A stretch of 40,119 nucleotides of DNA from Candidatus Thermoflexus tengchongensis (GTDB taxonomy: Bacteria; Chloroflexota; Anaerolineae; Thermoflexales; Thermoflexaceae): positions 1 through 40,119 of the forward strand of contig JAEVEX010000029.1 in the NCBI GenBank assembly GCA_016842085.1, written 5' to 3'. Below the pieces are notes generated by a model, which saw only the letters and a program-made list of their open reading frames with translations, did not search any database and had not been told where the DNA came from. Within the stretch, counting starts at the first letter, position 1, and each line of letters begins with the position of its first letter. Positions 7,716-27,667 of this stretch are shown in pieces. Both the position numbers and the translations under genes were made by a program.

Positions 7716-7731
7716 CCCGTCGCGATCGCGG

Positions 7732-10306: not shown

Positions 10307-10325
10307 TCCTGGGGAGGATTTCCCG

Positions 10326-13244
10326 ATGAGAGGATTCAGAGGCCGAACCGTGCGTTCCGCCCTGGCGCTTTTTCTGCTGGCCAGCCTGCTTCTGGGCCGG
10401 CTGTTCCTCTCCGGCGGGCGCCGCGCTCAGGCCGTGGCACCCGCCCCCATCGCCCTGGTCGTGGATCCCAGTGCACCGAACCCGTTCGGGCTTTATCTGG
10501 GGGAAATCCTGCGAGCGGAAGGCTGGGTCACCTACGATGTAATCCCTCTCTCCTCCATCTCGCCGTCGCTCCTTCAGCCCTACGCGATCGTCTTGCTGGC
10601 GGAAGTTCCTCTGGATGGAACGCAGGCCGGGGTCCTGCGGAACTATGTGGAAAACGGGGGACGTCTGATCGCCATGCGCCCCGCGCCGGAGCTGCGCGCC
10701 GCCATGGGATGGAACATCGCTGGAACGCTTTCGGATGCTTACATCCGGTTCGAGCCAGATCACCCGACCGTTCAGGGCCTGGCAACCGAGAGCCTTCAGT
10801 TCCACGGGGTGGGGGATCTTTACGCCCCACAGGGCGTGGAGGTGATCGCCCGGTTCTATCAGGATCGGGATACGAACAGCGGGTTTGCGGCGATCGGGCG
10901 TGTGGCCCGGGGGAACGGATGGGCGGCGTTCTGGGGCTATGACCTGGCCCGCAGCATTGCCCTCACCCGCCAGGGGAACCCGGACTGGGTGGGGCAGGAT
11001 CGGGAACCGGACGGGATCCTCCGAACCACCGATGTGTTCAGTGGATGGATCGACCTGGAACGCATCGCCATCCCGCAGGCCGACGAACAGATGCGGTTGC
11101 TCTCACGGCTGATCCGCGAGGGCCTGGCCGCGGCCGCCCCTGTGCCCCAGCTCTGGTATTTCCCGGATGGCGCTCGAAGCCTCCTGGTCCTCACTGCCGA
11201 TGCCCATGGGGGCCTCCAGAGCTATTACGAGGGAGAGATCGCCAGCATCGAATCCTTCAACGCCCGCGTGACGCTCTTTTTGACCCTGAACTTCGATTCA
11301 TGCCCGAGCGTGCCCACACCGGATTCGGTGAACGCATGGCGAGCGGCCGGGCACACCGTTGGGATCCATCCCTATGTTGGTGTGGATGATGGATATGACT
11401 TCGGGGATTTCCGGACCAGCACCATGCGCACCCGCGATCGCTTCCTGCGGTGCTATGGCCCGCCGCTTTCCCCCACCATCCGCACCCACCAGATCCGGAT
11501 GGGGGCCGGCTGGGTGGGCAACGCGCGCGTCCATGCGGAGTTCGGTTTCCCCCTGAACCTGGATTATTACATGCGCGGCCGGGTGACCGCGCGCCCGGAT
11601 GGAACCCAGGCCCATGGGTATCTGACCGGGAGCGGGCTCCCCATGCGCTTTGTGGATCTCAACGGGGAGATCCTGCCGGTCTACCAGCAGCTGACCAACA
11701 TCGTGGACGAGCAATACATGGATCAGCCCTTTTACCCCGACTGGCGTCGGGATGCGGATCAGGTCATCGCCATGATGGACGCAGGGCTCAACGCTTACTA
11801 TTCCGCCTTTGTGGCCAACTTCCACGTGGATTACTACAACTGGGGGGAGATCCGGCCCTGGGCGGAAGCGATTATGGCGGCGGCGCGATCTCGCGGCATG
11901 CCCATCTGGACCGCGGATCAATGGCTGGATTATGTGCTCAACCGGGACACCGCGCAAATTCAGGATCTGCAATGGGATGGGGCCGCCGGGCGCCTCTCGT
12001 TCACCTTCGTCAGTACGCCCACGCTCTCCTTCTCGCACACGCTCTGGCTGCCGCAGCGTTTCGGGGCATGGGAGATCCGCGAGGCCCGGGTGGATGGCCA
12101 GCTCGTCCCTCTCCTGTCTCAAACCCTGCGGGGGAGTCCAGGGGTTTTCCTGCTTCTGGTCCCCGGTTCCCATGCGGTGGTGATCTCCTTCGCGCCTTTC
12201 GGAGGGCCCACGCCCACCCGCACCCCCAGCTCGACACCGACGGCGACCGCCACCCCTACGCGAACGCCCACTCCCAGCCCGACACCGACGGCGACGCCGA
12301 GCCCCACGCCCACCCGCACCCCCAGCCCGACACCAACGGCGACCGCCACCCCTACGCGAACGCCCACTCCCAGCCCGACGCCGACGGCGACGCCGAGCCC
12401 CACGCCCACCCGCACCCCCAGCCCGACGCCGAGCCCGACCCCCAGTCCCACGCCGACCATTCCGCCGGTCGCCTGGATAGAGGGGAGCGGAGGATGGAGC
12501 CCGGTCTTGCCGGTGGCCGGCGAACTGGTCACGCTGACCCTTACCATAACGAACACCGGGCCGGCAGAAGCCCGGGGGCTGGACGTTCATGCCGTCTTCC
12601 CACCTTTCGCGACGGTCCGGGCATGTGATCCGAACCCCTGTCAGGTGGAACCGGGGGCACTGCGTTGGACCGGGGCCTGGCTTCCGCCAGGCCAGGCGCA
12701 GATCCTGACCGGCGTCCTGGATCTGCACCCGGAGGCGCTGGGGGATCTCTCCACCCGCATCGAGATCTCTTCGACTGAAACCCCATTGCAGGGAGAGACG
12801 GACTTCACCGTCACAACCTCTATCACCTCCCACGTCGATCTGGTTCTATCCGGACAGGTGGAGCCGAACCCGGTCATCGCCGGCCAATCAATAACCCTTA
12901 CGATGGTCCTGACGAACGCCGGGCCCAGCACGGCGCGAGCGGTGCAGCTGGAGGCTTCATGGCCGCCCAGCCTCACGCTGGAAGCCTGCGTGCCCTCATG
13001 CACGAGTACGTCAGGGGCTCGCTGGGCCCTGGACCTCCTTTCCCCACGGGAGCCAGCGTTCTTTCAGATCCGGCTCCGCGTGGCTCCCGATTTCACCGGG
13101 ATCGCTCCCATGGAGGTCCAGGCACGCTCCGCCCCTGTGGAGATTGACCCCCATACAAATTCCCAACGATTTGACCTCCAGGTCCTAACCCGCTTCCGCT
13201 ACCGTGTGTTCATGCCCGTGATCCTGCATGCGGGGTCCCCGTAG
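10326..13244 (+). CDS. Large exported protein: amidotransferase-like + deacetylase-like + DUF11 domains
   Basis: 972 residues with a Sec signal ([20 protein letters not shown]). Residues about 40-270 look like a class I glutamine-amidotransferase/ThuA-type fold ([55 protein letters not shown]). Residues about 275-560 resemble a divergent NodB/polysaccharide-deacetylase barrel ([48 protein letters not shown]). A beta region is followed by a Pro/Thr/Ser linker and two DUF11-like Ig modules ([18 protein letters not shown] and [17 protein letters not shown]). The tail is [14 protein letters not shown]. Domains one and two are shared with the Tat protein at 16395. Substrate is unknown and enzymatic activity unproven. 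The classical deacetylase D-D/H-x-x-x-H set is not intact. Confidence 0.8.
12207..12465 (+). repeat. 96-bp tandem repeats coding a Pro/Thr linker
   Basis: The stretch cccacgcccacccgcacccc recurs at 12207, 12303 and 12399, a period of exactly 96 bases (32 codons), for about two and a half copies. It encodes the [20 protein letters not shown]-type linker that tethers the catalytic-like part to the DUF11 domains. Such linkers are flexible and often O-glycosylated. Confidence 0.85.
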
Positions 13245-13320
13245 AGTGGGATCAGCTTCGAACAGCATCCTGAAAGCATGGGACGGGTGGAACGGATGCA
13301 GGTGTGAAAGGAGCGGAAGG

Positions 13321-14985
13321 ATGGCCACACAGACGCAGATACCGGTTGTTGAAGAGGAGGAGCTGCGGCGCAACCTGGGGACGCGGCGGATCCCTCCGCT
13401 GCCGGCTCCCAAATTCCCGGACGCCAGCCCGGTGATCCGGCGGCTGCGACCGCCCCGTTCATCCGAAGCCGTGGATGTGCTCCTGGTGAATCCACCTTCC
13501 CCGGATGGGGCAGTCTGGATCCGCAGCCAGCATCGGGTGGGTCGTCGCTCCCGGGAGAACATGATCTGGCCTCAGGTGAGCCTGGCTCAGATGGCGGCCA
13601 TGCTCCATCCGGATTACAGCGTGGAGATCGTGGACGCCATCGCGCTACGGATGGACTGGAAGGAGTTCGAAGATCTGCTTCGCCGCAAGCAGCCGAAATA
13701 CTACATCACCCAGGTCACCGCCCCCACCCTCACCAACGATATGTATGGCGCCTTCCTGGCCCGCAGCCTGGGCGCGAAGACTATCGCCTTCGGGACCCAC
13801 GTGACCCCCATGCCGATCCCGACGATGGAGGCCTACCCCGCGCTGGATTTCGTGCTGCGGGGGGAGCCGGAGCTCACCCTGCGGGAGCTGATCGACACCC
13901 TGGAGGGCCGGGTCCCTGAAGGCCGCATCCGGCGGTTGTTCGAGGACAGCGATCCCGGGTGGTTCCCCCTGAACGAGGGGGAGGCTCGGGAGTGGCCCCT
14001 GGAGGAGAAGCTGGCTCGCATCAAGGGGCTGGTCTGGCGTCGGAACGGCGAGATCCGCGTGAACATCGACCGTCCTTTCATCCGCAACCTGGACGACATG
14101 CCGCTTCCGCTGCACCATCTGTTGCCCCTCTATCATTACCGGGCGCCGATGATCCGGGGCCCATACACCTTCATCGTGACCAGCCGGGGCTGCACCGCCG
14201 GGTGCACCTACTGCATCAAGCACGTGAGCTACCAGTACTCCATCCGCCTCCGTTCCCCCGAGAACATCGTGGAGGAGATCCGTCACCTCGTGGATCTGGG
14301 GATCCGGAACATCCATATGTATGCCGACCTCTTCACCATCAGCCGGGATCAGGTGATGGGGATGTGCGATCTGCTGATCCGCGAGGGGATCCGGATCCGC
14401 TGGACATGCAACAGCCGGGTGGACTACGTGGATCGGGAGATGCTGCGCCGGATGGCTCAGGCGGGCTGCTGGTTGATCTCCTGGGGCATCGAATCGGCGA
14501 ACGAGCAGATCCTGAAGGGGGTGCGTAAGGGATACCGTCTGGAGCAGGCGCCCCAGGCCCTTCGCTGGGCGAAGGAGGCCGGGATCAAGAACTGGGGCTA
14601 CTTCATTATCGGCCTGCCCGGGGAGACCGAGGAGACCATCCGGCAAACCATCGAGTTCGCCAAGTCCCTTCCGCTAGACCTCGCCCTCTTCCATATCGCG
14701 GCCCCTTATCCGGGCACTCCCTTCTTCTTCCAGGTGGTGGAGAACAACTGGTTCCGCCCGGGCACGGCCTGGGAGGAAGTGGACATGGATCGCTCAACGG
14801 TCCTGGACTATCCGGGGCTGCCGGCAGAGCGGCTGGAATACTGGCAGAAGCGGGCGTTCCGGGAATGGGCGCTGCGACCCGGGCCGATCCTCACCTTCCT
14901 GAAGGGCGCGCTGGATCCGGCGGTGGTGGGGTCCGCCATGGAGGTGGCCATCCGCCATGCGCGATGGCTCCTGGGGATGGAGTAG
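13321..14985 (+). CDS. B12-binding-domain radical SAM protein
   Basis: 554 residues from ATG 13321, which has GGAGCGGAAGG just upstream. The frame is open to 13228 but that extension overlaps the previous gene and looks non-coding. An N-terminal cobalamin-binding-like domain spans about 50-205 (VDVLLVNPPSPDG, VEIVDAIALRMDW, FGTHVTPMP, DFVLRGEPELTLRELI). The radical SAM core follows with SRGCTAGCTYC (C291, C295, C298), binding the 4Fe-4S cluster, and later MAQAGCWLISWGIES and GYFIIGLPGETEETI. This is the BchE/P-methylase-like class, which does difficult C-H chemistry on lipids, sugars or cofactors. The substrate cannot be told from sequence. Its position between two exported paralogues and an acyltransferase suggests modification of a surface lipid or glycan. 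Confidence 0.85.
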   Translation: MATQTQIPVVEEEELRRNLGTRRIPPLPAPKFPDASPVIRRLRPPRSSEAVDVLLVNPPSPDGAVWIRSQHRVGRRSRENMIWPQVSLAQMAAMLHPDYSVEIVDAIALRMDWKEFEDLLRRKQPKYYITQVTAPTLTNDMYGAFLARSLGAKTIAFGTHVTPMPIPTMEAYPALDFVLRGEPELTLRELIDTLEGRVPEGRIRRLFEDSDPGWFPLNEGEAREWPLEEKLARIKGLVWRRNGEIRVNIDRPFIRNLDDMPLPLHHLLPLYHYRAPMIRGPYTFIVTSRGCTAGCTYCIKHVSYQYSIRLRSPENIVEEIRHLVDLGIRNIHMYADLFTISRDQVMGMCDLLIREGIRIRWTCNSRVDYVDREMLRRMAQAGCWLISWGIESANEQILKGVRKGYRLEQAPQALRWAKEAGIKNWGYFIIGLPGETEETIRQTIEFAKSLPLDLALFHIAAPYPGTPFFFQVVENNWFRPGTAWEEVDMDRSTVLDYPGLPAERLEYWQKRAFREWALRPGPILTFLKGALDPAVVGSAMEVAIRHARWLLGME

Positions 14986-15004
14986 ATCACCGGAGGCGGC
15001 TCCC

Positions 15005-16243
15005 ATGACGGGATCGGTTTCCACGGGGGCTCCCCGACTGGCCTGGCTCTCCGCGATGCGGGGTCTGGCCATCCTGATGATTGTGCTTTATCACATCACG
15101 ATCGCCATCTATGGGGTGCCCTGGTTCGCTCACCCCCGGAGCGACTGGCCGGAGCTGACGGCCCGGATCGCCCAGCTCCGGCCGATCCCCCAGGAAAATC
15201 TGGGGGCTTTTCTGCTAGCCAACCTGTTCCGCTACACCGGCTGGCTGGGGTATCAGGGCACCGGGGTGTTCCTGGTGATCAGCGGGTTCGGTCTCACCTG
15301 GGCGCTGGTCAGCCGTTCCCGGGAGGCCCTCCTGGATCGCCGGGCGTTCTACATGCGGCGCTTCCTGCGCCTGTTCCCCCTCTACTGGGCTGGACATCTG
15401 TTCTTTCTGGTCTTCAACAACCTGGTGGGCTGGCGGCCGTTCTCCCCCCTGGACCCCCGTTTCATGCTCAGTCTGCTTGGGCTCCGGTTTTTGCCCGGGG
15501 TCTTCCATTTTATCTCCCCGGCGTGGTGGTTCATCGTGCTGATCATGCAGCTTTATGCGGTCTTCCCCTTTCTCTGGGAAGCCCTGAAGCGGCTCGGGGC
15601 GGTCCGGTTCTGGATCGCGGCGGTGCTCCTCACAGTGCTCACCCGGGCGATCGGCTTCCTCCTCCTGCCGGTGGATCCGGAGATGTGGTCCCGGGGGTTA
15701 CTGTTCACCTCACGGCTGGGGGAGTTCGCCATGGGGATGGTCCTGGCCTGGCAGGCGGCAGGGGATCCGGGGAAAGTTCATAGCTGGCTGCGCTCGCCGC
15801 GCTCCTGGCTGGCTCTCCTGGTTCTATATGGATGGGGAATGGGGCTCTCCTTCACACGGCCCGGGGCGGCGATCGCCCCCCTTTTCATCGCTCCGGCCGT
15901 GACGGGCTTCCTGATGCTGCTGGCCCGGGATCTCCTGCCCCGCTGGCCACAAGCCGCCCGGGCTTTCGCCCAGGTCGGCACCTTTTCCTATGGGGTGATG
16001 GTCTTCCACCAGCCCCTCCTCTGGGCGCTGATCGTCTGGCTGTGGCCGTTCCGCATGCCGCTGACCATCCGCCTGGGCCTCATCGGGGCCGCCACTCTCC
16101 TCATTATCCTTTTCTCCGCGGCGGCGGAGATCGGGATAAACGGGTTGCTGCGCCGATGGCCCCTCAACCGGATCTTCCCGCCCCTCGGACCTTACGCCCG
16201 CGTTCCAGTCCGGAATACATCCCTCTTATTCCCACGATCGTGA
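15005..16243 (+). CDS. Acyltransferase 3 (OafA/YrhL-like) membrane protein
   Basis: 412 residues from ATG 15005 (GGAGGCGG upstream). The frame extends to 14957 but that stretch lies inside the preceding gene. Ten or so hydrophobic segments are visible. The first holds the family's essential His in AILMIVLYHITIAIYG, followed by GYQGTGVFLVISGFGLTWAL and RRFLRLFPLYWAGHLFF. These three match the acyltransferase_3 signature. The family moves acyl groups across the membrane to glycans or lipids outside the cell. It starts 19 bases after the radical SAM gene, so the two are probably co-transcribed. Confidence 0.87.
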   Translation: MTGSVSTGAPRLAWLSAMRGLAILMIVLYHITIAIYGVPWFAHPRSDWPELTARIAQLRPIPQENLGAFLLANLFRYTGWLGYQGTGVFLVISGFGLTWALVSRSREALLDRRAFYMRRFLRLFPLYWAGHLFFLVFNNLVGWRPFSPLDPRFMLSLLGLRFLPGVFHFISPAWWFIVLIMQLYAVFPFLWEALKRLGAVRFWIAAVLLTVLTRAIGFLLLPVDPEMWSRGLLFTSRLGEFAMGMVLAWQAAGDPGKVHSWLRSPRSWLALLVLYGWGMGLSFTRPGAAIAPLFIAPAVTGFLMLLARDLLPRWPQAARAFAQVGTFSYGVMVFHQPLLWALIVWLWPFRMPLTIRLGLIGAATLLIILFSAAAEIGINGLLRRWPLNRIFPPLGPYARVPVRNTSLLFPRS

Positions 16244-16334
16244 AGTAGGACAGCTGCAAGAAGCCGTCCGGCCTGCCTTGAAGCCCCCGGGGCAGCCCAT
16301 CCTTTCAGGAGTTGCTGGGGGATTTCGGGACCGT

Positions 16335-16367
16335 GGGGAGGAGGGGGCGAAGCCATCCCTCCTCCCC
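16335..16367 (+). promoter_or_regulatory. Hairpin in the leader of the Tat-exported protein gene
   Basis: GGGGAGGAGGG (16335-16345) pairs perfectly with CCCTCCTCCCC (16357-16367) around an 11-base loop. No U-run follows, so it is not a normal intrinsic terminator. The left arm resembles a ribosome-binding sequence. The hairpin lies about 28 bases before the ATG at 16395 and could influence translation or mark the end of the acyltransferase transcript. Confidence 0.5.
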
Positions 16368-16394
16368 TGCTTCGAGCTCAATGGAAGGTAAGGC

Positions 16395-18374
16395 ATGGGC
16401 TCCTACACCCGACGGCAGTTTCTGAAGATGAGCGGCGCGGCGGGGCTCACGGTGGCGATGGCAGGGGCCTTCGGGGGCTACCGTCTGTGGGAGGACACGG
16501 ATGGGAGGCCACTACCCGTCCGTTCCCCCTTTGTTGAGCCCCCCGATCGCCGCTGGCCCCTCCCGGGCGGAGAGGCACCGATCCTCCTGATCCTGAACGA
16601 TCGGGCCTCGCCCCCCGGCGGAGCTTTCCTCGCGGAGATCCTGCGAACGGAGGGCCTCAACGCCTTCCGGGCGGCCTCCCGGGCTGCCCTGCGCCCGGAG
16701 ATCCTGGAGCGCTTCCCCATGGTGGTGCTCAGCACCGGGGGGCTGGATACCGCAGAAGGAGAAGCCCTGCGCCGCTACGTCGCTCAGGGCGGTTGTGTGA
16801 TCGCCATGCGGCCGCCCCGGGCTCTGGCGGACCTCTTCGGGCTGGAGCCCGCTGCGGGCGAGACCGCCGAGGGGTATGTGCGGATCCGGGAGGATCATCC
16901 GCTGGGCCGGGGCTTTCCTCAGGAAGCCCTGCAGTTCCATGGCGTGGCCGATCATTACCGGCTGGCCGGGGCGGAGGCCATCGCCTTCCTGGCCGGGAAG
17001 GCCGGGGATCTCCCCTTCCCGGCCGTGACGCTGCACCGGTTCGGCAGAGGGAGGGCCGGGCTGTGGGCGTTCGATCTCGCGGGGAGCATCGCCCGGACCC
17101 GCCAGGGCAACCCGGAGATGAGCCATCAGGAACGGGACGGGCTCCACGGACTGCGCGCCCACGAGCTCTTTGACGGCTGGGTGGATCTGGATCGCATCGG
17201 AATCCCCCAGGCGGATGGGCTGATGCGGCTGCTGAGCCGACTGATCACCGGGATGCTCCTGGATCGACTCCCCCTTCCTCGCCTCTGGTATTTCCCCAAT
17301 GGGGCGCCGGCGATCCTGGTGGCGACGGGAGACGCCCACAACACTCCTCCCCTGGCCGTGGGAGAAGTCTTCCGCCGGGTGGAGGAGCGAGGGGGAACGT
17401 TCAGCGTGTATTATGCGCCTCTGCCGCGGAATCACCTTCAACGGGCCTGGCATCGCCTGCTGGACTGGATCGATCGGCCGGCGGGGCATGTCATCCTCCC
17501 CGAGCACGTGCAGCGCTGGCGGGCGCGGGGCCATGAGTTCGGAATCCATCCCTACGTTGAGGAGGGCCTGGAAGCCGGATGGCAGCGCTACTGGGAGGTG
17601 TTCACCGGGATGGGCTACGGCCCGGTTTCCCCTACCGTGCGCACCCACCGGGTCCTCTGGAGCGGATGGGTGGAGACGGCGCGGGTCCAGGCGACGTATG
17701 GGATCCGGATGAACCTGGATTTCTATCACGTCGGCCCGATGTTCCGGAAGGCGGATGGGGAATGGGTCTTCGGTTATTTCACCGGCAGCGGGCTTCCCAT
17801 GCGTTTCGTCGACGAGGAAGGTCGCGTCCTGGACATCTACCAGCAGCTGACGGCCCTGGTGGATGAACAGCTGATCGGATGGACATGGCCTCAGGCGCCC
17901 CGCTTCCCGCTTCCCATCGCGCTGGATATCTCCCGGAACCTGCTCCACAACGCTATGGAGCAGAATGAGGCCCTGGCGTTGCAAGCCCATGTGGATCCAT
18001 TCGCCATCGGTGGGGAGGCGGCGGAGACCCAGGCGCGCTGGCTGGAGGGGACCCTGGATGAGGCGGCCGGGCGGGGGATCCCCATCACGTCGGCACAACG
18101 CTGGTTGGAGTTCGTGGAAGCCCGGGAACGGACCGAACTGGAGGCGCTGCGCTGGGATCCCGAAAGCCGGACGCTTCACCTGCGGGTGGTGGCTCCATCC
18201 ATTCCCTTCCGCCTCACCCTGGCCCTCCCACTGGAGATCCCCGGTGGGCGGCTCGTTGAGGTGCGGGTGGACGGAGCCTCCGTGTCCCATTCCGAACGGA
18301 GCTGGCAGGGATTCCCCTATGCCTGGATCCATCTCCCGGGAGGTGTCTCACAGATCGCGGCCCTTTACAGATAA
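16395..18374 (+). CDS. Tat-exported amidotransferase-like/deacetylase-like protein, paralogue of the 10326 gene
   Basis: 659 residues with a twin-arginine signal: TRRQFLKMSGAAGLTVAMAGAFGG. Residues about 60-290 are an amidotransferase/ThuA-like domain (ILLILNDRASPPGGAFLAEIL, LRRYVAQGGCVIAMRPP, RAGLWAFDLAGSIARTRQGN). Residues about 295-590 are a deacetylase-like barrel (ILVATGDAHN, GHEFGIHPYVEEG, SPTVRTHRVLWSGW, GRGIPITSAQRWLEFV). Long matches to the 10326 protein ([23 protein letters not shown]) prove common ancestry. This copy lacks the Pro/Thr linker, DUF11 domains and the FMPVI-type tail, so it may stay soluble or be membrane-tethered. Tat use suggests folding or cofactor loading before export. 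The conserved DAH of both copies may bind a metal. Function is unknown. Confidence 0.82.
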   Translation: MGSYTRRQFLKMSGAAGLTVAMAGAFGGYRLWEDTDGRPLPVRSPFVEPPDRRWPLPGGEAPILLILNDRASPPGGAFLAEILRTEGLNAFRAASRAALRPEILERFPMVVLSTGGLDTAEGEALRRYVAQGGCVIAMRPPRALADLFGLEPAAGETAEGYVRIREDHPLGRGFPQEALQFHGVADHYRLAGAEAIAFLAGKAGDLPFPAVTLHRFGRGRAGLWAFDLAGSIARTRQGNPEMSHQERDGLHGLRAHELFDGWVDLDRIGIPQADGLMRLLSRLITGMLLDRLPLPRLWYFPNGAPAILVATGDAHNTPPLAVGEVFRRVEERGGTFSVYYAPLPRNHLQRAWHRLLDWIDRPAGHVILPEHVQRWRARGHEFGIHPYVEEGLEAGWQRYWEVFTGMGYGPVSPTVRTHRVLWSGWVETARVQATYGIRMNLDFYHVGPMFRKADGEWVFGYFTGSGLPMRFVDEEGRVLDIYQQLTALVDEQLIGWTWPQAPRFPLPIALDISRNLLHNAMEQNEALALQAHVDPFAIGGEAAETQARWLEGTLDEAAGRGIPITSAQRWLEFVEARERTELEALRWDPESRTLHLRVVAPSIPFRLTLALPLEIPGGRLVEVRVDGASVSHSERSWQGFPYAWIHLPGGVSQIAALYR

Positions 18375-18400: not shown

Positions 18401-21400
18401 TTACCGCTCCGGTTCATGATCAAGGGCTGCCCCTGTGGATCGAAGGGCTGTATAAAACACAATCATAAACGCGAACGCCAGGTCCACCAGGAAGAACCCA
18501 TTATCCACCATCCCATGGGCCAGTGTGTCCGCCATCGCGCCTGCTGCGCCCCAGCGCCAGGGATCCATGGAAGCCCCCGGGCGGACGATTCCCCGCCAGA
18601 AGAGAACCTGCCAGGCCAGCCCGGCGATCAGCCCCAGCAGGCCAGTGCGGGCCCAGAAGTCCAGGAAGATGTTGTGGGGATGGGAGAGGTTCGGCTCCTG
18701 CCACGCGTCGGGCCGGATGTAGCGGCTGCGATACCAGTAAAGGAAATTATCCGGCCCAACCCCGAGGAGGGGATGTTCTCGCAGCAGATCTATGGTGCTG
18801 GCCCACAGGCGGATGCGGAAGAAGACCGTGCTGCCCGGGGTGGATGCGCGCCGGGCCACCGCTTCCCTCACGCGCGGCCCAAGAAGCCCTCCCAGCCCCA
18901 TCGCTGCGCCGAGGGCGAGGATCCCAAGCCCCCACCGGGCCCTTCGCGGCAGCCTTCCCCAGCGATCGCGTAACCACAACCCGCCCATCGCAATCAGCGC
19001 CGCTGGGATCCCCAGGAACGCGGCCCCTTCGGAACACGTCCCAACGCCTGCGATCCCCACGATCACGAGGCCCAGCCCGGCAAGAAGCCGCCCCCGCCGC
19101 GAACTTCCAGCCAGCGTCATGGCCAGCAGGAACGGGAAGATCCGACCCAGGTAGAGGGCCAGATTATTGGGCGAGCCGAAGGGCCCTCGCATGCAGCGGG
19201 CGCCGGCCTCCCCGGTGATCAACCCAACTCCGGTGATCCCCTGCATCAGCCCCACGCCCGCCGCTGCGATCCCACCCCCCAGAAAGGCATGCAGCACCGT
19301 TGCCCATTCCGCGCGTGACGGCCGCATGGCCCGGGCCATGGCGTAGAACAGGAGGGGCTCCAGGATCACCATGCGCCACTCCCGCCACGCCACCCGCTGG
19401 AACGATGCGAGGGATGTGCTGAGGGTTGCCGCCCCGAAAAAGACCAGCATCCAGCGATCCGCTGGCTCCCACGCCCAGGCATTCCTCCTTTCCTTCCCCC
19501 AGCGGATCCCCGAATGGAGCAGCCAGGCCGCGGCGGTGAGCAGGAGCATCAGCTCGTTCATCGGGAAGGCCTTCTGGAAGAAAGGCTTCGGATACAGATA
19601 GAAAGGGGCCCAGAAGGCGGTGAGGGCTAGGCCGAGGGAGGGCCGTCGGATCAGCACGGCCAGAAGCAGCAACGCGACCAGGGCCGTGAAGGCCACCCGG
19701 GGGGCCAGATAGAAGAGCCCGCTCAGGGCCAGGCCCAGGCCCAGCCATCCGACCTCCCCTCCGCGTCGGAGCCCCCATGGCTCCAGGGAGATCCACCACA
19801 TCCCGGCGTAGACCAGCGCGGAGAGTCCCCAGGCGCCCCACAACTCCAGCCGATGGACCATGGATCTCAGAAGCTCCCAGATGGGGAAAGCGGCGGACCG
19901 GCGGGCCTGGAAGACTCCGGTGATCAGAAGCCATCCCCCGATCCCAATCCCGAGCAGGCCCAGGCCCAGCGCGAGGCGATACCGGGAGAGATCCGGCTGC
20001 ACGCCGGCAACGCTCCAGCCCACCAGCGCCCATTGCCCCCATCCTCGCTCCGCTTCGATCTGCACGGTGTGAGGCCCATAGGCCAGGCCATCCGCTACCG
20101 GGATGGTGAGGACTTCCGGTGTGGCGTAATCTGGGGAGGTCAGGATCAGGTAGGCGCCGCGGGCATCCCGGGGAAGCCGGTTCGCCGGCTGTCCATCCAC
20201 CCATACGTAGAGATGGGCGCGATACCCACCCCGTCGGACTCGCAGGGCGAGCCCGGTGCCCTCGAAGACGAAGCGCAGGCGATCCCCCTCCTCTCGCCCG
20301 ATATCCGCGCCCAGCGCCGAGAACCGCCATGCGCCCTCGTAGACCGCTCCCGGCGGCGGACTGTAGGCGAGCGCTCCGGTTCCTCCCTGAGGGATCGCCG
20401 CCGGATAGTAACCGGGGGTGAAGGGCGCATGGGAGGCTGCCGCGCGAAGCGCCTCGGCGACCGGGCGTAACCGTCCGGAGGGATCCACCACTGCAAAGCC
20501 CCATCGCGGATCATCGGGTGGAGCATCCGGCCGCCAGCTCTCCAGAAACAGGGTTCCCATCCAGGGCCATTCCCGACGGACCCGCTCGATGGCCTCCCGA
20601 ATGTAACGGGCCTGGGTCGCCTCATCCACCTGCCCCCAGATCGAGGGGCGGCCGCTCCAGCCCGGCGGCAGGGCATTCCACCCCCAGTGGCTGGCCCAGA
20701 TGGGCTTCTCCCCATCCCCATAGCGGACCATCACCTCGCGCAGCAGGATCGCCCGCGAGAAGTTCAACACATCCGGATCCACCCGCCGATCGTCCGGTCC
20801 GGTATCGAACCCATACGGTTTGGCGGCGACGATGTCGAAAGCATCCCGGGCCCCCAGCTGGTAAAGCCGCTCCAGGAACAGCCAGTCGGCCAGGTTCCAC
20901 GGACCCTGCTCCACCGTGGGGGCCAGGCCGGCCAGCACGATCACCGCGTCCGGGTCCGCTGCACGGATCGCGGCCGCAGCCTGTTGCAGCAGGGCCGCGT
21001 AAGCCTGGGGATCCGGGAGCCCACCACCCCATCCGATGGTGAGGTTCGGCTCATCCCAGATCTGGTAAAAGCGCACCCATCGCCCGTAGCGCGCCGCGAA
21101 AGCGCCGGCGAACCGGGCGAAGTCCGCGGGATCCAGGGGCGGAGCCATCGGTCCGTTTCGCCGGGCCGCCCATGCCGGGCTGTCCCCCAGCACGGCCACG
21201 AGCTCCAGGCCGGCCGCCTGGACCCCGGCCATCACCGAATCCGCTTCGGACCAGTCCCAGCGGTCCTTCTCCGGCTGGATCGCCCGCCAGGGGAAGAAAA
21301 CGCGGATCCGGGAGATGCCCAGGGCGCGGATCTGCTCCAGATCCCGGTGCTGCTCTTCGGGCCTTTGTCCGAACAGATAGACGTTCAAACCCACGCGCGG

Positions 21401-21616
21401 CTCGCCGGACCACGGGATCGGCGGGGGGAAACCGGCAATAGTCCCCTGCCAGCGGGCACGCAGAAGCTGCCCCGTCAGCCCCAGCCCGAGCAGCCCGAGG
21501 CCGATCAGCAGCAAACCCAACCCGATCTGAAGCGAACTGCGCCGTCGATCGATGAAAGATGCCATGGGATCTTTCTCAACGAGGAAAGGCTTCCGGGGTC
21601 CCGGGGGCATCTTCAA
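18401..21616 (-). CDS. Glycoside-hydrolase-like domain fused to O-antigen-ligase-like membrane protein
   Basis: 1,071 residues. One membrane segment (about 30-50) is followed by a TIM-barrel like GH39/GH5-type hydrolases at about 70-395 (GISRIRVFFPWRAIQPEKDRWDW, FYQIWDEPNLTIGWGG with the acid/base-like E189). A beta-sandwich follows at about 415-540 (LRFVFEGTGLALRVRRGG). The second half has about twelve hydrophobic segments and the Wzy/WaaL signature GVGPDNFLYWYRSRY then SHPHNIFLDFWARTGLLG. The site where a nucleophile Glu is expected reads PIWASHWGWN, so the usual T-E is replaced by S309-H310. The hydrolase part may thus bind glycan rather than cut it. The start could be 21616 or ATG 21565; neither has a strong ribosome site. 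It converges with the 16395 gene after a 26-base gap. Confidence 0.8.
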   Translation of the reverse strand: MKMPPGPRKPFLVEKDPMASFIDRRRSSLQIGLGLLLIGLGLLGLGLTGQLLRARWQGTIAGFPPPIPWSGEPRVGLNVYLFGQRPEEQHRDLEQIRALGISRIRVFFPWRAIQPEKDRWDWSEADSVMAGVQAAGLELVAVLGDSPAWAARRNGPMAPPLDPADFARFAGAFAARYGRWVRFYQIWDEPNLTIGWGGGLPDPQAYAALLQQAAAAIRAADPDAVIVLAGLAPTVEQGPWNLADWLFLERLYQLGARDAFDIVAAKPYGFDTGPDDRRVDPDVLNFSRAILLREVMVRYGDGEKPIWASHWGWNALPPGWSGRPSIWGQVDEATQARYIREAIERVRREWPWMGTLFLESWRPDAPPDDPRWGFAVVDPSGRLRPVAEALRAAASHAPFTPGYYPAAIPQGGTGALAYSPPPGAVYEGAWRFSALGADIGREEGDRLRFVFEGTGLALRVRRGGYRAHLYVWVDGQPANRLPRDARGAYLILTSPDYATPEVLTIPVADGLAYGPHTVQIEAERGWGQWALVGWSVAGVQPDLSRYRLALGLGLLGIGIGGWLLITGVFQARRSAAFPIWELLRSMVHRLELWGAWGLSALVYAGMWWISLEPWGLRRGGEVGWLGLGLALSGLFYLAPRVAFTALVALLLLAVLIRRPSLGLALTAFWAPFYLYPKPFFQKAFPMNELMLLLTAAAWLLHSGIRWGKERRNAWAWEPADRWMLVFFGAATLSTSLASFQRVAWREWRMVILEPLLFYAMARAMRPSRAEWATVLHAFLGGGIAAAGVGLMQGITGVGLITGEAGARCMRGPFGSPNNLALYLGRIFPFLLAMTLAGSSRRGRLLAGLGLVIVGIAGVGTCSEGAAFLGIPAALIAMGGLWLRDRWGRLPRRARWGLGILALGAAMGLGGLLGPRVREAVARRASTPGSTVFFRIRLWASTIDLLREHPLLGVGPDNFLYWYRSRYIRPDAWQEPNLSHPHNIFLDFWARTGLLGLIAGLAWQVLFWRGIVRPGASMDPWRWGAAGAMADTLAHGMVDNGFFLVDLAFAFMIVFYTALRSTGAALDHEPER

Positions 21617-21715: not shown

Positions 21716-22645
21716 TTATGCCCGGAGGAGATTCCGCACCACGAACCAGACGTTGGCCGGGCGTTCTCCAAGGCGCCGCATAAAGTATGGATACCACTCT
21801 GTCCCGTAGGGCACATATACCCGGACCGTATACCCCTGGCGGGCCAGGGAGACCTGGAGATCGCGGCGGATCCCATAGAGCATCTGGAACTCGAAAGCAT
21901 CGCGGGGGACTTCCCACTCCGCGATCCGGCGCAGCGCGTGCTGGATGATCCGCTCATCGTGCGTGGCGATCGCCACATAGGCGCCTCGTGCCCGCGCCTC
22001 CGCGGAGAGCAACCGCTCCATCAGCTGCACATAGCTGGCGTCCACATCTCGCTTTCGGGGATAGGCGATGTGAGGCGGCTCCTGGTAGGCTCCCTTACAT
22101 AAGCGGATCCGGGCGATCCCCTCTTCGATCAGGCGCTCCACGTCCTCCCGGCTTCGATACAGGTAAGCCTGGATCGCCACCCGGGTGTTGGGATACCGCG
22201 GGGCGAGTCGCCGATACAGCCTCAGGGTTCGCTCCGTGTAAGCGCTGCTCTCCATATCGATCTCCACCACCGTCCCCACCTGGGCCGCCCGCTCGATCAC
22301 CCGCTGCAGATTCCCCTCGCAGAACTCCTCCCCGATATCCAGGCCCAGGTGGGTCAGCTTCACCGCCAGATGCGGCCGCAGCCCCAACGCGGCCAGGCGA
22401 TCCAGCGCGAGCAGGTAATCCTCGGTGGCCCGCACCGCGTCGGCGGGGGATTCCACATTCTCCCCCAGATGATCCAGGATCCCCCGGATCCCCAGAGCCT
22501 CCAGCTCACGGATGGCCCGCAGGCCATCCTCCAGCGTCTCGCCGGCCACAAAGCGTGAAGCGGCCTGCCAGACGAATCCCCAGCGCATCACCCGTTCCTT
22601 CATCGTCCGGTTCCGGGAGAGCGAGACAAAGAGGGCACGCCACAT
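21716..22645 (-). CDS. Proline dehydrogenase
   Basis: 309 residues, a monofunctional FAD-dependent proline dehydrogenase, which oxidises proline to pyrroline-5-carboxylate. Signature parts: VKLTHLGLDIGEEF, VEIDMESSAYTERTL, VAIQAYLYRS, RLCKGAYQEPPHIAYPRKRDVDASY, VAIATHDERII and FEFQMLYGIRRDLQ. The length fits the compact thermophile type. I chose ATG 22645 (AGGGGG upstream). The frame is open to 22813 but that part lies over the PBP2 gene and is Arg-rich, non-conserved sequence. It begins 43 bases after mrdA and is the same strand, so it may be co-transcribed. No P5C dehydrogenase is visible here. Confidence 0.9.
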   Translation of the reverse strand: MWRALFVSLSRNRTMKERVMRWGFVWQAASRFVAGETLEDGLRAIRELEALGIRGILDHLGENVESPADAVRATEDYLLALDRLAALGLRPHLAVKLTHLGLDIGEEFCEGNLQRVIERAAQVGTVVEIDMESSAYTERTLRLYRRLAPRYPNTRVAIQAYLYRSREDVERLIEEGIARIRLCKGAYQEPPHIAYPRKRDVDASYVQLMERLLSAEARARGAYVAIATHDERIIQHALRRIAEWEVPRDAFEFQMLYGIRRDLQVSLARQGYTVRVYVPYGTEWYPYFMRRLGERPANVWFVVRNLLRA

Positions 22646-22688
22646 GGGATCCCCCTGATGCCGAGGATGAGGTCCTGGCCATCGCCGC

Positions 22689-24698
22689 TCACCGCCGGAA
22701 ATAGGCCTCCAGAACCTCCCGGGCCACCGGCGCGGCGTTCTGAGAGCCCTCCCCCCCATTCCAGATGAAAACGAGGATGGCGATCTCCGGCGCCTCCGCG
22801 GGCGCGAAGGCAACGAACCAGGCGTGACTGGGCAGCCGTCGTCCGGCGCACAGCCCCATGCGGAGGGCTAAATCATCGCAGAACTCCGCCGTCCCGGTCT
22901 TGCCGGCGATCCGGATCCCCGGGATCTGGGCCCGAACCGCGGTTCCCCGTTCCACGGCGGCCACCATCCCCTCACGAACCACGGCCAGGTGCTCTGGGGC
23001 AATGGGGAGCCGCCCGATGACCTCCGGCTGGAAGGCCTTCATGAGGGTGCCGTCCGGACCGGCGATCTCGTGGACCAGGGTGGGCCGATAAAGGGTTCCC
23101 CCGTTCGCAATCGCGCTGACGGCGTTGAGGAGCTGCAAGGGCGTCACCAGCAGATACCCCTGCCCGATCCCCAGGTTATACGTATCGCCGGTGGACCATG
23201 TCTCCCCGAAGGTTTTCCGCTTCCACTCCGGATCCGGCACCTGTCCCGCCGCCTCCCCGGGCAGCTCGATCCCGGTCGGGTGCCCCAGGCCGAAGGCATG
23301 CATGTAGCGCACCAGGCGCTCGATCCCCAGCCCCTCGAACACCGGCTCCCCCGGCACATCGTAGCCTCCGGCGACCTTATAGAAGAACACATTGCAGGAG
23401 TTCGCCAGGGCATCCACCACATCCTGCCAGCCATGGCCAGAGCGCAACCAGCAGAAGAAGTGCTGAGCGAGCCCTGGATCGTTGGGAAAGTAACGGTTGG
23501 GGATCACGATCTCTCCCGGGTCGAACAGCCGGGTCCGAGGCGTGATGACCCCTTCCTGGAGCGCAGCGGCCGCCACGATGGGCTTGAAGGAGGAGCCCGG
23601 CGCGAACTGAGAGGCGATCGCGTGGTTGAGCAGCGGCGCAAAGGGATCCTCCACCAGACGGCTGTAGGCCTGAGGGAGATCGGGGCTGACGAACAGGTTG
23701 TTATCGTAATCCGGGAGGCTGACCATGGCCAGGATCTCCCCGGTGCTCGGCCGCATGGCGAGGACCACCCCCCGCCGCGTGATCTCCCGTCCGGCGATGC
23801 GGTTCAGCTCTTCCAGTTTGGCCTGCAGGGCCGCCCGCGCGGCGGCCTGCAGGTCCAGATCCAGGGTGAGCGTGATCCGCGCGCCGGCCTGAGGAGGGAT
23901 CTCCGCCAGCACCCGCACGGGCCGTCCCAGGGCGTCCTCCTCCACGTAACGGGCCCCCTTCGTCCCCCGCAGCCACGATTCCAGGGCATACTCCAGGCCG
24001 CTCAGACCCACCCGATCCACGGCCGGATCATAGCCCTGGGCCTGGTAACGAGCGGCCTGCTCCGCCGGGATGCGCCCCACGAAGCCCACCACATGGGCGG
24101 TCAGCGGGCCGGTAGGATAACGCCGTTGCATGGTAAGCTCCACGCGGACGCCGGGGAGACGGCTGCTCTCTTCCATCAGGCGGAAAGCGACCTCCCGATC
24201 TACCGGCTCCTTCAAGACCAGCGGCCGGAAGGGGGCCTCCCGGGCGGCGGCCTCGATCCGGTCCCGGATCCCCGGGCCGCCCTGCCCTTGAGCCGAGGCC
24301 CCGCCGCTTTCCACGGGTATGCCCAGCCATTGGCTGAGCTGATGGAAGATCGCCTCCCGCCGGGCCGGATCCTCCGGCAGATCGCCCGGGATCACCAGGA
24401 CCCGGAACGCCGGGTCGTTCTGAACCAGCGGGCGCCCCTGGCGGTCCAGGAGGAGCCCCCGGGGGGCCTCCAGAGGGATCACCCGCAGACGGTTCCGTTC
24501 CCCCAGGGCCTGATATCCAGGTCCCTCCAGGATCTGAAGCCGGTAAAGGCGATAACCCAGCCCCGTGAACGCGAGGGCGATGAATAGTGCCCAGAGGATG
24601 AGGCGAAGATAAGGGGAAGGACGAGGCGGTGGAGGGGGGCGGAACACCGCCACGCTGTCCAGGGCTTCCGGCTCACGAGGTGGATAAGGTTCCGACAT
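22689..24698 (-). CDS. mrdA: Penicillin-binding protein 2 (elongasome transpeptidase)
   Basis: 669 residues, class B PBP. A Pro-rich cytoplasmic N-terminus precedes one membrane anchor (LILWALFIALAFTGLGY, about 33-50). A PBP dimer region follows (LEAPRGLLLDRQGRPLVQND), then the transpeptidase domain with APGSSFKPIV (S369-x-x-K372), ANSCNVFFYK (SxN motif) and IAGKTGTAEF (KTG motif). These are all intact catalytic motifs, and SWLRGTKGARYVEEDALGR is typical of PBP2. It cross-links peptidoglycan in the rod-shape complex. It is the fourth gene in order mreB-mreC-mreD-mrdA, the classical arrangement. Start ATG 24698 has GCAGGAA upstream. The 121-base gap before it holds no clear promoter. Confidence 0.93.
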   Translation of the reverse strand: MSEPYPPREPEALDSVAVFRPPPPPRPSPYLRLILWALFIALAFTGLGYRLYRLQILEGPGYQALGERNRLRVIPLEAPRGLLLDRQGRPLVQNDPAFRVLVIPGDLPEDPARREAIFHQLSQWLGIPVESGGASAQGQGGPGIRDRIEAAAREAPFRPLVLKEPVDREVAFRLMEESSRLPGVRVELTMQRRYPTGPLTAHVVGFVGRIPAEQAARYQAQGYDPAVDRVGLSGLEYALESWLRGTKGARYVEEDALGRPVRVLAEIPPQAGARITLTLDLDLQAAARAALQAKLEELNRIAGREITRRGVVLAMRPSTGEILAMVSLPDYDNNLFVSPDLPQAYSRLVEDPFAPLLNHAIASQFAPGSSFKPIVAAAALQEGVITPRTRLFDPGEIVIPNRYFPNDPGLAQHFFCWLRSGHGWQDVVDALANSCNVFFYKVAGGYDVPGEPVFEGLGIERLVRYMHAFGLGHPTGIELPGEAAGQVPDPEWKRKTFGETWSTGDTYNLGIGQGYLLVTPLQLLNAVSAIANGGTLYRPTLVHEIAGPDGTLMKAFQPEVIGRLPIAPEHLAVVREGMVAAVERGTAVRAQIPGIRIAGKTGTAEFCDDLALRMGLCAGRRLPSHAWFVAFAPAEAPEIAILVFIWNGGEGSQNAAPVAREVLEAYFRR

Positions 24699-24819
24699 CG
24701 CGGGTTCCTGCTTGCTCTTCAGGGTTGCGGAAGATCCTCTTCTCGCGCCATGACGCGGCGCGGAAAACCCGAAAGGAGGGAGGCGGGCTCCCCGGGCGTC
24801 CCCGCTCCTCCTTCGGCGT

Positions 24820-25329
24820 TCATCCGCGCAATGCAGGCCGTTCCGGGCGCGGGCGGAGCGCCCGGAGCAGCGGGTAAAGCAGCAGCATCCCCATCGTATT
24901 CCAGAGCGCCTCCGGCAGCATGATCTGCTGGAACACGGTATTCCAGTCCACCAGATATTGTAAAGCCATCAGGAGGAATCCCCGAACCCCCTCCATCAGG
25001 AGAGTGCCCACAGCGGCCACCAGCGCCGGCATGATCAATCGCCCCCGGAAAACCGGTCGGCTGAGCCCATGGGCGAGCGGAACGACCGCCATCAGCGCCA
25101 GCGCGCTGAGGCCGATCGGCCCGCCGGAGAAGAGATCCAGCAGCACCCCCCCGGCCAGTGCCCACCCCAATCCTTCCTCCGGAGGGGCGAGAAAGGCCGC
25201 CGTGGCGACCGCCAGGAACACCAGATTCGGCCGCCCCGGATCCGGGATCCCCATTGGGATCCAGGTGGCCTGAAGCATGGCGGCCAGCCCCAGAACACCG
25301 AGCGCTCGCACCCACGGCTTTCGCAGCAT
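24820..25329 (-). CDS. mreD: Rod-shape-determining membrane protein MreD
   Basis: 169 residues with about five hydrophobic segments, the MreD size and pattern: VRALGVLGLAAMLQATW, NLVFLAVATAAFLAPPEEGLGWALAGGVLLDLFSGGPIGLSAL, LIMPALVAAVGTLLMEG and a final WNTMGMLLLYPLLRAL. The phrase GLxWALxxGxLLDLFSGxPxG is the family hallmark. MreD is the integral membrane partner of MreC and PBP2. ATG 25329 has AAGGGATC upstream. A perfect palindrome lies in the gap before it. Confidence 0.9.
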   Translation of the reverse strand: MLRKPWVRALGVLGLAAMLQATWIPMGIPDPGRPNLVFLAVATAAFLAPPEEGLGWALAGGVLLDLFSGGPIGLSALALMAVVPLAHGLSRPVFRGRLIMPALVAAVGTLLMEGVRGFLLMALQYLVDWNTVFQQIMLPEALWNTMGMLLLYPLLRALRPRPERPALRG

Positions 25330-25359
25330 GATCCCTTCGACCCAAAGTGTCCTGGCTTT

Positions 25360-25389
25360 CGTAGGGCAACTGCTTGCAGTTGCCCTACG
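25360..25389. repeat. Perfect 30-base palindrome between mreC and mreD
   Basis: CGTAGGGCAACTGC-TT-GCAGTTGCCCTACG: two 14-base arms and a 2-base loop, with no mismatch. It lies in the 71-base gap between mreC stop and mreD start. It would fold in the mreBCD mRNA. No U-run follows in the direction of transcription, so it is not an intrinsic terminator. It may be a copy of a dispersed intergenic palindrome, or an mRNA processing or stability site. Confidence 0.85.
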
Positions 25390-25400
25390 CGGCTGCAGGA

Positions 25401-26231
25401 TTAAGGTGGAGACTCCATCCCGGGAAAACTCGTGATCACCAGCACATAGCTCAGACGCCTGGGATCGACGGCGGGCTGGATGCGGGCGCGCTGGAAGGGC
25501 TCGCTGCCTTCCAGCACCTCGGTGATCTGGCCGATGACCAGCGCCCGCGGGATCTGGCCGCCCACTCCGGAAGTCAGCACCACATCCCCCGGAAGGATCT
25601 GCTCATCGGGCCGCACGAAATCCAGCAACAGGCTTCCATCGGGCTGGCCGATCACCATCCCGGTCGCCCGGGTGGTCTGCAACAGCGCCCCCACCTGGTT
25701 TCCCCCGTCGTTCAGCAGGCGCACCCGGGAGCGGTTGAGATCGGCGGAAGCGATCCGTCCGACCAGGGCCGAGCCCCGGGTGATCACCGGCATCCCCTCC
25801 CGAACCCCCTGGCGGGTCCCCACATCCAGGATGAGAAAGCGAAGATAGGGATCCGTTTCGTAGCCGATCACCGTGGCGGCCACGAAGGTGGTCTGGGGGT
25901 TCTCCTGGACAATCCCCAGCAGCGCTTTCAATTCTGCGTTCTCGGCGGCCAGTTCCCGCAGACGCAGGTTCTCGGTCTGCAGATCTTCCACCTGAGCCCG
26001 CAGGCGTTCCACCTCCTCCCGGAGATCACGGATCTCCCGGAGGAATCCCACCGCGCCCAGGGCATTCCGCCCCAGATCCGCTATGAGACGCTGGAGAGGC
26101 GTCAGAGGGACTGTCAGGAGAGATTCCACGGGCTGAAGCCATCCCAGCCCGTGGAGGAAAAGGAGCAACACGGCCAGGCCCACAAACAGCCAGGCTGTCC
26201 ATGGCCGTCGATCTCCGGAGGGCAGGGCCAT
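25401..26231 (-). CDS. mreC: Rod-shape-determining protein MreC
   Basis: 276 residues. One N-terminal membrane segment (AWLFVGLAVLLLFLHGLGW) is followed by a coiled coil (FLREIRDLREEVERLRAQVEDLQTENLRLRELAAENAELKALLG). The double beta-barrel domain comes next (VAATVIGYETDPYLRFLILDVGTRQGV, GMPVITRGSALVGRI, SRVRLLNDGGNQVGALLQTT, DVVLTSGVGGQIPRALVIGQI). All are diagnostic of MreC, the periplasmic or extracellular scaffold linking MreB to PBP2. ATG 26231 has AAGGAG upstream. It follows mreB after 81 bases. Confidence 0.93.
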   Translation of the reverse strand: MALPSGDRRPWTAWLFVGLAVLLLFLHGLGWLQPVESLLTVPLTPLQRLIADLGRNALGAVGFLREIRDLREEVERLRAQVEDLQTENLRLRELAAENAELKALLGIVQENPQTTFVAATVIGYETDPYLRFLILDVGTRQGVREGMPVITRGSALVGRIASADLNRSRVRLLNDGGNQVGALLQTTRATGMVIGQPDGSLLLDFVRPDEQILPGDVVLTSGVGGQIPRALVIGQITEVLEGSEPFQRARIQPAVDPRRLSYVLVITSFPGMESPP

Positions 26232-26312
26232 TCAATCTCCTTCTCAAGACGATGGGATGGCCCCTCCCCGTGGCAAAGGGCGGGTGGGGAGGGAACTGCA
26301 GGACGCGTTCCC

Positions 26313-27407
26313 CTACCGGGCGATCGGCTGGCCGATGTGCACGGGCGATCGGGGCGGCCGGCCGCGATCCAGCGAGGTCAGCACCTGATGCCAGGTGTCC
26401 AGGTTCTCCAGGACCTTCGCGGCCCCCAGGGCAACCGCCGTGACCGGATCCGGTGGCACCCAGCATCGGATGCGGGTCTCCTCGGTCAGGCGCTGGGCCA
26501 GGCCTTTCAGCTGGGCCCCGCCGCCGACCAGCGCGATGCCGATCTCCATGATATCGGCGACCAGCTCCGGCGGCGTCTCATCCAGGACCGATTTCACCGT
26601 GTCCACGATGATCCCCACCGCATCCCGCAGCGCCTCGCGGATCTCAATGCTGGAGACCTCGATGGCATCCGGCAGGCCGGTGATCAGGTTCCGCCCGCGG
26701 ACTACCATGGTTCGCTCCTCGGGCAGGGGGTAGGCGGACCCGATCTCGATCTTCACCCGTTCGGCCATCCGCTCGCCGATGAGCAGATTGTAACGCTGGC
26801 GCATGTAATTGATGATCGCCTCGTCCATCTCATCCCCGGCCACCCGGACGGAGCGCCCGACGACGATCCCTCCCAGGGCGAAGACGGCCACCTCGGTGGT
26901 TCCACCCCCGATATCCACCACCATGCTTCCGCGAGCCTCGGCGACGGGGAGGCCGATTCCGATGGCCGCCGCCAGGGGCTCCTCGATCAGGAAAGCGGCC
27001 CGGGCGCCGGCAGCGAGGCAGGCGTCGTGGACGGCGCGGCGCTCCACCTCGGTCACCCCGCTGGGGATCCCCACCACCACCCGCGGGCGGGGGATCGGAA
27101 CCGGAACCTGCTGGTGGGCTTTGCGGATGAACTCGCCGATCATCTCCCGGGTCACTTCGAACTCCGAGATCACGCCATCCCGCAACGGGCGGATGGCCAC
27201 AATGTGAGCGGGGGTCCGGCCGACCATCTCCTTGGCCGCCTCCCCAACTGCCAGCACCTGTCGGGAGCGCCGGTCAATGGCCACCCATGAAGGCTCGTGG
27301 ATCACAATCCCCTTCCCCCGCACGCACACCAGGGTGGTGGCGGTCCCCAGATCGATCCCGATATCCAGGGAAAATAATCCCAGCAACGCATCGATCGGAT
27401 TCCACAC
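26313..27407 (-). CDS. mreB: Rod-shape-determining actin homologue MreB
   Basis: 364 residues from a GTG at 27407. The frame is open upstream to 27749 but that extension crosses the promoter and the end of ybeY and is not conserved. Actin-fold motifs are intact: phosphate 1 DIGIDLGTATTLVCVRGKGIV, then VGRTPAHIVAIRPLRDGVI, phosphate 2 MVVDIGGGTTEVAVFALGGIV, and adenosine GIALVGGGAQLKGLAQRL. MreB polymerises on the membrane and guides lateral wall synthesis. A GGAGAAGAG stretch precedes the GTG. The residue order WNPIDALLGLFSLD before the first motif is longer than in most MreB, so the exact start is moderately uncertain. Confidence 0.92.
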   Translation of the reverse strand: MWNPIDALLGLFSLDIGIDLGTATTLVCVRGKGIVIHEPSWVAIDRRSRQVLAVGEAAKEMVGRTPAHIVAIRPLRDGVISEFEVTREMIGEFIRKAHQQVPVPIPRPRVVVGIPSGVTEVERRAVHDACLAAGARAAFLIEEPLAAAIGIGLPVAEARGSMVVDIGGGTTEVAVFALGGIVVGRSVRVAGDEMDEAIINYMRQRYNLLIGERMAERVKIEIGSAYPLPEERTMVVRGRNLITGLPDAIEVSSIEIREALRDAVGIIVDTVKSVLDETPPELVADIMEIGIALVGGGAQLKGLAQRLTEETRIRCWVPPDPVTAVALGAAKVLENLDTWHQVLTSLDRGRPPRSPVHIGQPIAR

Positions 27408-27546
27408 CGGTTCTCTTCTCCAGAGCCAGGATGATCCATTCAGGCAGAAACACGTCCCCGCGCTTCCCTGCTTGCCACAGACCTTTTCCCTTTTGAGAGG
27501 CAGATCCCCGGGTTGCCACATCGGCTTTTGAGGGGATCCGGGCTGG

Positions 27547-27575
27547 ATTATACGGGGGGCCTGCTGGTTCGGCAA
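27547..27575 (-). promoter_or_regulatory. Sigma-70-type promoter of the mreBCD-mrdA operon
   Basis: On the minus strand TTGCCG (27575-27570) and a perfect TATAAT (27552-27547) are separated by 17 bases. The predicted start is near 27540, giving a leader of about 130 bases before the GTG of mreB. It sits in the only sizeable gap (27408-27667) between ybeY and mreB and is the clearest promoter in the window. I see no other structure in that gap. Confidence 0.7.
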
Positions 27576-27667
27576 CCGCTTTTTCGCCGGGCCCATCGCT
27601 CCAGGCAGGGTATCCCCGGCACCCTCATGGCTCCAAAATCTCCAGGAGGAGATAAACGGCACCGTTT

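Follow-up and report, generated by a model that had tools for sequence, protein, structure and literature searches.

Why should a glycoside hydrolase barrel that lacks its catalytic nucleophile be kept on a membrane enzyme of the O-antigen-ligase type? The question is raised by one gene in the window analysed in this study, a stretch of 40,119 nucleotides from Candidatus Thermoflexus tengchongensis. The gene occupies positions 18401-21616 on the minus strand (read from 21616 to 18401), where it forms a frame of 1,071 residues when counted from a TTG; the start codon is likely an ATG, either the one at 21610, which lies two codons downstream of the TTG, or the one at 21565. A plus-strand reading of the frame was ruled out, as stops interrupt it across 18401-21616.

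The encoded protein combines a membrane anchor, a GH39 (PslG)-like barrel, a beta-sandwich and a WaaL-fold GT-C polymerase/ligase, all on the minus strand. Pfam detected Wzy_C (PF04932) at residues 849-998 (18623-19072; E 8e-19, with 68.3 bits against a gathering cut-off of 31.7) and weak GH42/GH5-type matches at the N-terminus, and the NCBIfam matches of the membrane part were confined to IctB and RfaL, both below cut-off. In the AlphaFold model of the whole protein (mean pLDDT 89), an N-terminal membrane helix at residues 17-55 (21452-21568), with a hydrophobic core at 29-47 after an RRR, is followed by a (beta/alpha)8 barrel at residues 70-400 (20417-21409), a beta-sandwich at about residues 425-537 (19997-20344 when drawn to residue 540) and a helical membrane bundle from residue 543, the GT-C domain spanning residues 543-1059 (18440-19990). 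Frame, Pfam match and model thus bear out the original prediction that one protein joins a barrel of GH39 type to a sandwich and to a membrane domain like that of O-antigen ligases, and place it on the minus strand.

PslG is the closest relative of the barrel by sequence and by fold. It was the first PDB match of a profile built from 64 full-length homologues (E 3e-32 over the whole barrel), and both structural searches of the predicted barrel ranked it above the other GH39 enzymes that follow it, Foldseek with E 3e-18 and VIA-align with Z 32.4 (rmsd 4.1 over 332 aligned residues). GH1 and other clan-A enzymes appear at lower Z in the VIA-align lists, and no family equals PslG, so that the comparison with GH39 structures suggested originally points to GH39 of the PslG type. 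PslG is an endo-beta-glucanase of this family, in which the nucleophile E276 has been trapped covalently in a crystal, E165 serves as acid/base and N164 contacts the -1 sugar (PMC11912335), and it belongs, at the inner membrane, to the complex that synthesizes Psl (PMC6813494). When the two are aligned, E165 corresponds to E189 of the fused barrel, N164 to D188 and E276 to H310. The model has eight barrel strands (75-79, 103-109, 138-144, 183-186, 225-227, 262-265, 306-311 and 353-358); E189 comes directly after strand 4 and H310 (20687-20689) stands at the end of strand 7, the positions of the acid/base and the nucleophile. The acid/base Glu is therefore present and the nucleophile Glu absent, both as had been claimed, and the Asn that precedes the acid/base in the NEP motif of clan GH-A is absent too, its place being taken by Asp (D188-E189, 21050-21055). 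Since PslG N164 is Asp here and the other sugar contacts of PslG appear, from the sequence, to be unconserved, the glycan is probably not Psl-like.

It is extremely improbable that we are dealing with an ordinary, active GH39 enzyme whose nucleophile seems missing through an error of alignment. Glu does stand in column 310 in 15 of 120 homologues of the class, but the register around H310 is fixed by a near-invariant W307 and by invariant G312 and W313, the model puts H310 at the end of strand 7, and N188 and W359 have changed as well.

The fusion is widespread. In the window's class, 279 of 298 sampled genomes have a match to the whole protein at E <= 1e-10, a count that includes ligase-only matches, and at least about 85 among the matches listed span barrel and ligase without a break. 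We extracted 142 fused frames of at least 900 aa from the class, of which 120 were non-redundant at 95%, and further fused frames were found in other Chloroflexota classes. Recurrence of the fused frame in 120 non-redundant class homologues excludes chance, and its presence in many independent assemblies rules out a one-off or assembly-made fusion. The best 80 loci of a genome scan all belong to Chloroflexota where the phylum is named (Thermoflexus, Promineifilum, Roseilinea, Anaerolineales and others), and barrel relatives, fused and stand-alone taken together, were found in 110 of 251 genomes drawn from the whole phylum. No barrel match was obtained from the near-complete genomes of the class families f27, f59 and nearly all of f53, and outside Chloroflexota the sole match in the plasmid collection was one of 23% to the barrel region, in Methanomethylovorans. 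The architecture had been presented as unusual, which does not hold for its distribution across the window's class and other classes, but does hold in that we found no published description of the fusion, or of its inactive form, in the open-licence literature; both halves belong to known families. Some loci carry variants of the gene. A 1,236-aa fused protein (L167:1390-5097), with a barrel match of about 515 residues, suggests a partly duplicated barrel; two fused genes lie in tandem at L048:2099-5245 and 5270-8377, with H-Q-G and D-E-A at positions 188/189/310; and a broken copy in genome G030 (L075) consists of three open frames split by in-frame stops.

Loss of the active site is a feature of the class as a whole. 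Among its 120 homologues, position 310 holds Asn in 34, His in 32, Glu in 15, Ser in 12, Ala in 10, Gln in 9 and, in the rest, one of seven rarer types, Asp in 2 and the others once each; position 189 holds Glu in 107, Asn in 10 and Gln in 3, and position 188 Asp in 104, His in 14 and Asn and Gln in one each. At position 359 Trp is found in none, Glu in 43 and 13 other residue types in the remainder, and the full N188-E189-E310-W359 (NEEW) set is carried by no member. Stand-alone barrels have Glu at 310 in 20 of 22 cases, Asn at 188 in 20 of 22, Trp at 359 in all 20 that have a residue there and the full set in 19 of 22, two such intact barrels (L157 and L158) being encoded in the window's own genome. 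Fused barrels outside the class have Glu at 310 in 11 of 12 cases and the full set in 8 of 12, and since they mostly keep an intact Glu pair, the decay followed the fusion. On a FastTree phylogeny built from just the ligase domain, in which many branches are weak, position 310 changes between Glu and non-Glu at least 9 times and changes residue at least 39 times, and position 189 changes between Glu and non-Glu 6 times. N188 and W359 occur together in no class member and E310 persists in 15, thus N188 and W359 seem to have been lost earlier than E310 was in most cases.

Could another residue have taken over from the lost nucleophile? E359 (20540-20542) had been named as a candidate, and in the model it lies just after strand 8; 43 of the 105 class members that lack E310 have it, against none of the 15 that carry E310, as would be expected of a retaining hydrolase that has relocated its nucleophile. 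We nevertheless regard this as very unlikely, because E359 occurs in clusters on the tree (with at least 11 changes), gives way to 13 other residue types elsewhere, is missing too in most members without E310, and occupies what is a Trp site in active relatives, namely in 20 stand-alone barrels. The data therefore speak against the proposed substitution.

Across ten close pairs, which include pairs without the nucleophile, the barrel had a dN/dS of 0.11-0.23, the sandwich one of 0.05-0.21 and the ligase one of 0.09-0.26. Purifying selection acts on the barrel as it does on the ligase, and the low dN/dS of the barrel indicates that it is not decaying although the nucleophile is gone. W187, N191, W196, E236, W307, W313 and W352 fall within the lowest 0-5% of barrel entropy, positions 188/189 at the 16th-18th percentile, 310 at the 74th and 359 at the 82nd, and the pocket-side residues E189, Y268 and W313 are conserved. 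A barrel held under purifying selection while position 310 drifts fits the suggestion, made in the original prediction, that it has become a glycan-recognition module, a role in which it would bind the polymer.

What the attached membrane domain might act on can be narrowed from its fold and from the genome. A profile of the ligase half matched WaaL (7tpg) alone in the PDB (E 1e-10), and the ligase half as a single sequence gave no PDB match. Its separate model (pLDDT 88.5) aligned with WaaL (7tpg_B) at Z 24.8 over 369 residues (rmsd 4.2), with FtsW/RodA next in VIA-align at Z 12-13. All 120 class homologues share R934 (18815-18817), which aligns with the WaaL Arg at chain index 265, and likewise H981 and N982; H981 (18674-18676) belongs to an HPHN motif, aligns with the His of the WaaL HxHN motif (chain index 313) and probably corresponds to the residue named His338 in PMC10449877. 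LpxC and LptD were not found in the genome, which is 95% complete and in which the controls were positive, and the Chloroflexi genomes of PMC5826079 likewise have no LPS genes. LPS O-antigen ligation is thus ruled out, and the name O-antigen ligase does not apply in its literal sense, because the acceptor is something other than lipid A-core. As the genome has flippase-family proteins but neither LpxC nor LptD, the substrate is likely a non-LPS undecaprenyl-PP glycan, and the membrane domain is likely a polymerase or ligase of such glycans, sequence and fold fitting both equally.

The neighbourhood of the gene offers further clues. Upstream on the same strand (21716-27749, minus; Pfam and NCBIfam) lie genes for MreB, MreC, a 216-aa ORF at the MreD position, PBP2 (MrdA) and proline dehydrogenase, and the order MreC, PBP2, proline dehydrogenase, fused gene is kept in two Thermoflexus relatives (L077 and L078). 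In Thermoflexus the fused gene stands beside mreB/mreC/PBP2 (window 22689-27749), in an order that differs from that of four Anaerolineales loci (L124, L138, L149 and L154), where it is beside mreC and PBP2, and mreD in most, in the series G5-propeller, fused gene, sugar epimerase, MreC, (MreD), PBP2. An mreC/PBP2 neighbourhood in differing orders hints at a link to cell elongation. A G5/DUF348/propeller gene lies directly upstream in at least 66 of 141 fused loci, some of which have no upstream sequence, and often overlaps the fused gene by about 10 bases (a G5 + DUF348 + beta-propeller gene at L086:8250-9854 is an example); its product is likely a partner of the fused protein. In the window's genome the G5-propeller homologue is located elsewhere and not at the fused gene. 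Frequent downstream genes encode Macro-domain proteins, SDR sugar epimerases/dehydratases, a second Wzy_C protein and GtrA, and at several loci of other classes an intact stand-alone barrel is encoded directly upstream of the fused gene. The window itself also holds, just after an epimerase gene, a gene for a Wzy_C membrane protein with C-terminal TPR repeats (P0002, 35629-39165, plus strand), and genes for an esterase, a DUF11 protein, a radical SAM/B12 protein, an acyltransferase and a Tat-signal protein adjoin the fused gene (8999-18374, plus strand).

These neighbours could be taken to mean that the barrel is a structural or protein-docking module with no carbohydrate role, for instance for the G5-propeller protein, whose gene so often abuts and overlaps the fused one, or for MreCD/PBP2, given MreC and PBP2 beside the gene in the window's genus and in the four Anaerolineales loci. 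Such a module is unlikely, if the least so of the alternatives considered here, because fused barrels of other classes mostly keep the full glycoside hydrolase active site and E189, Y268 and W313 on the pocket side stay conserved.

The persistence of D188-E189 raises another possibility, that the barrel is an enzyme by a changed mechanism, in which this pair would act together with the 2-acetamido group of the sugar, as in substrate-assisted N-acetylhexosaminidases, and would trim or terminate a HexNAc polymer. The pair is kept in 102 of the 120 class members, 89 of all members with the pair are without E310, and E189 changes rarely when compared with the changes at 310. The G5 domain, encoded directly upstream at the 66 loci, has been proposed to bind N-acetylglucosamine. 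The residue of PslG at the position of D188, N164, contacts the -1 sugar (PMC11912335), and GH20 enzymes use an invariant Asp-Glu pair (PMC4752478). On the other side, none of the 120 has the Trp that active relatives carry at strand 8, ten members retain the protein after losing D188 as well as E189, and 15 members with D188 still have E310, which leaves a substrate-assisted enzyme a rather doubtful prospect. It is more doubtful still that the change of N188 to Asp made the nucleophile dispensable, so that a GH-A barrel working by substrate assistance on a HexNAc polymer would be the built-in chain terminator of the polymerase.

In what we consider the best reading of this protein, and on balance a probable one, the barrel is a pseudo-glycosidase that serves as guide domain to a polymerase or ligase of undecaprenyl-PP glycans. 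The membrane enzyme of WaaL/Wzy fold would join undecaprenyl-PP-linked glycans outside the membrane and would carry the PslG-like barrel and the beta-sandwich on the outer membrane face. Its ancestor was probably an active endo-glycosidase of GH39 type, already joined to the polymerase/ligase, from which the barrel of the class would have lost its cutting chemistry (N188 to Asp, E310 to His and others, W359 to others) with its fold and conserved aromatic framework retained despite these losses. The barrel would now most likely hold, position or measure the growing glycan beside the ligase active site, as a guide or ruler. PslG in the Psl complex may serve as a precedent for a glycoside hydrolase working with a polymer machine (PMC6813494). 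However, retention of E189 in 107 and of D188 in 104 of 120 members is more than pure binding needs, and some residual chemistry is possible; 15 of 120 members carry Glu at 310, and the conserved aromatics of the barrel may be structural only.

The role of glycoside hydrolases in polysaccharide-making clusters, such as PslG, PelA, PgaB and BcsZ, is a standing question. Here a hydrolase is joined to a polymerase/ligase across a phylum, and its cutting residues were then lost in one class with the barrel kept under selection, a retention that speaks for binding or placement of the chain, and not cutting alone, as a selected function. Active-looking and inactive natural versions of one fused protein provide material for testing this. 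The protein also suggests that monoderm Chloroflexota possess an envelope glycan system, of which the same open-licence literature yielded no description.

How does the fused protein compare with known systems? Its nearest comparison within the window is P0002 (35629-39165), which likewise adds an extra domain to Wzy_C, but has TPR repeats and no barrel. The stand-alone Chloroflexota barrels, two in the same genome (L157 and L158) and others beside fused genes (L164 and L182), belong to the same family, with L157 41% identical to the fused barrel over the barrel region; unlike the fused barrel of the window, they keep the NEEW set and have no ligase. With the WaaL O-antigen ligase (PDB 7tpg/7tpj) and Wzy_C, the ligase half shares the membrane fold, the Arg and the HxHN motif, whereas WaaL has a lipid A-core acceptor, which does not suit a genome without LPS genes, and the fused domain follows a glycoside hydrolase barrel. 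PslG of the Pseudomonas aeruginosa Psl locus (PDB 5bx9, 4zn2 and 9g17) has the barrel fold and the WxEPN acid/base motif in common with the fused protein and, like it, is membrane-associated and linked to glycan assembly; PslG, however, is a separate protein with E276, N164 and hydrolase activity, while the fused barrel has H310, D188 and an attached ligase.
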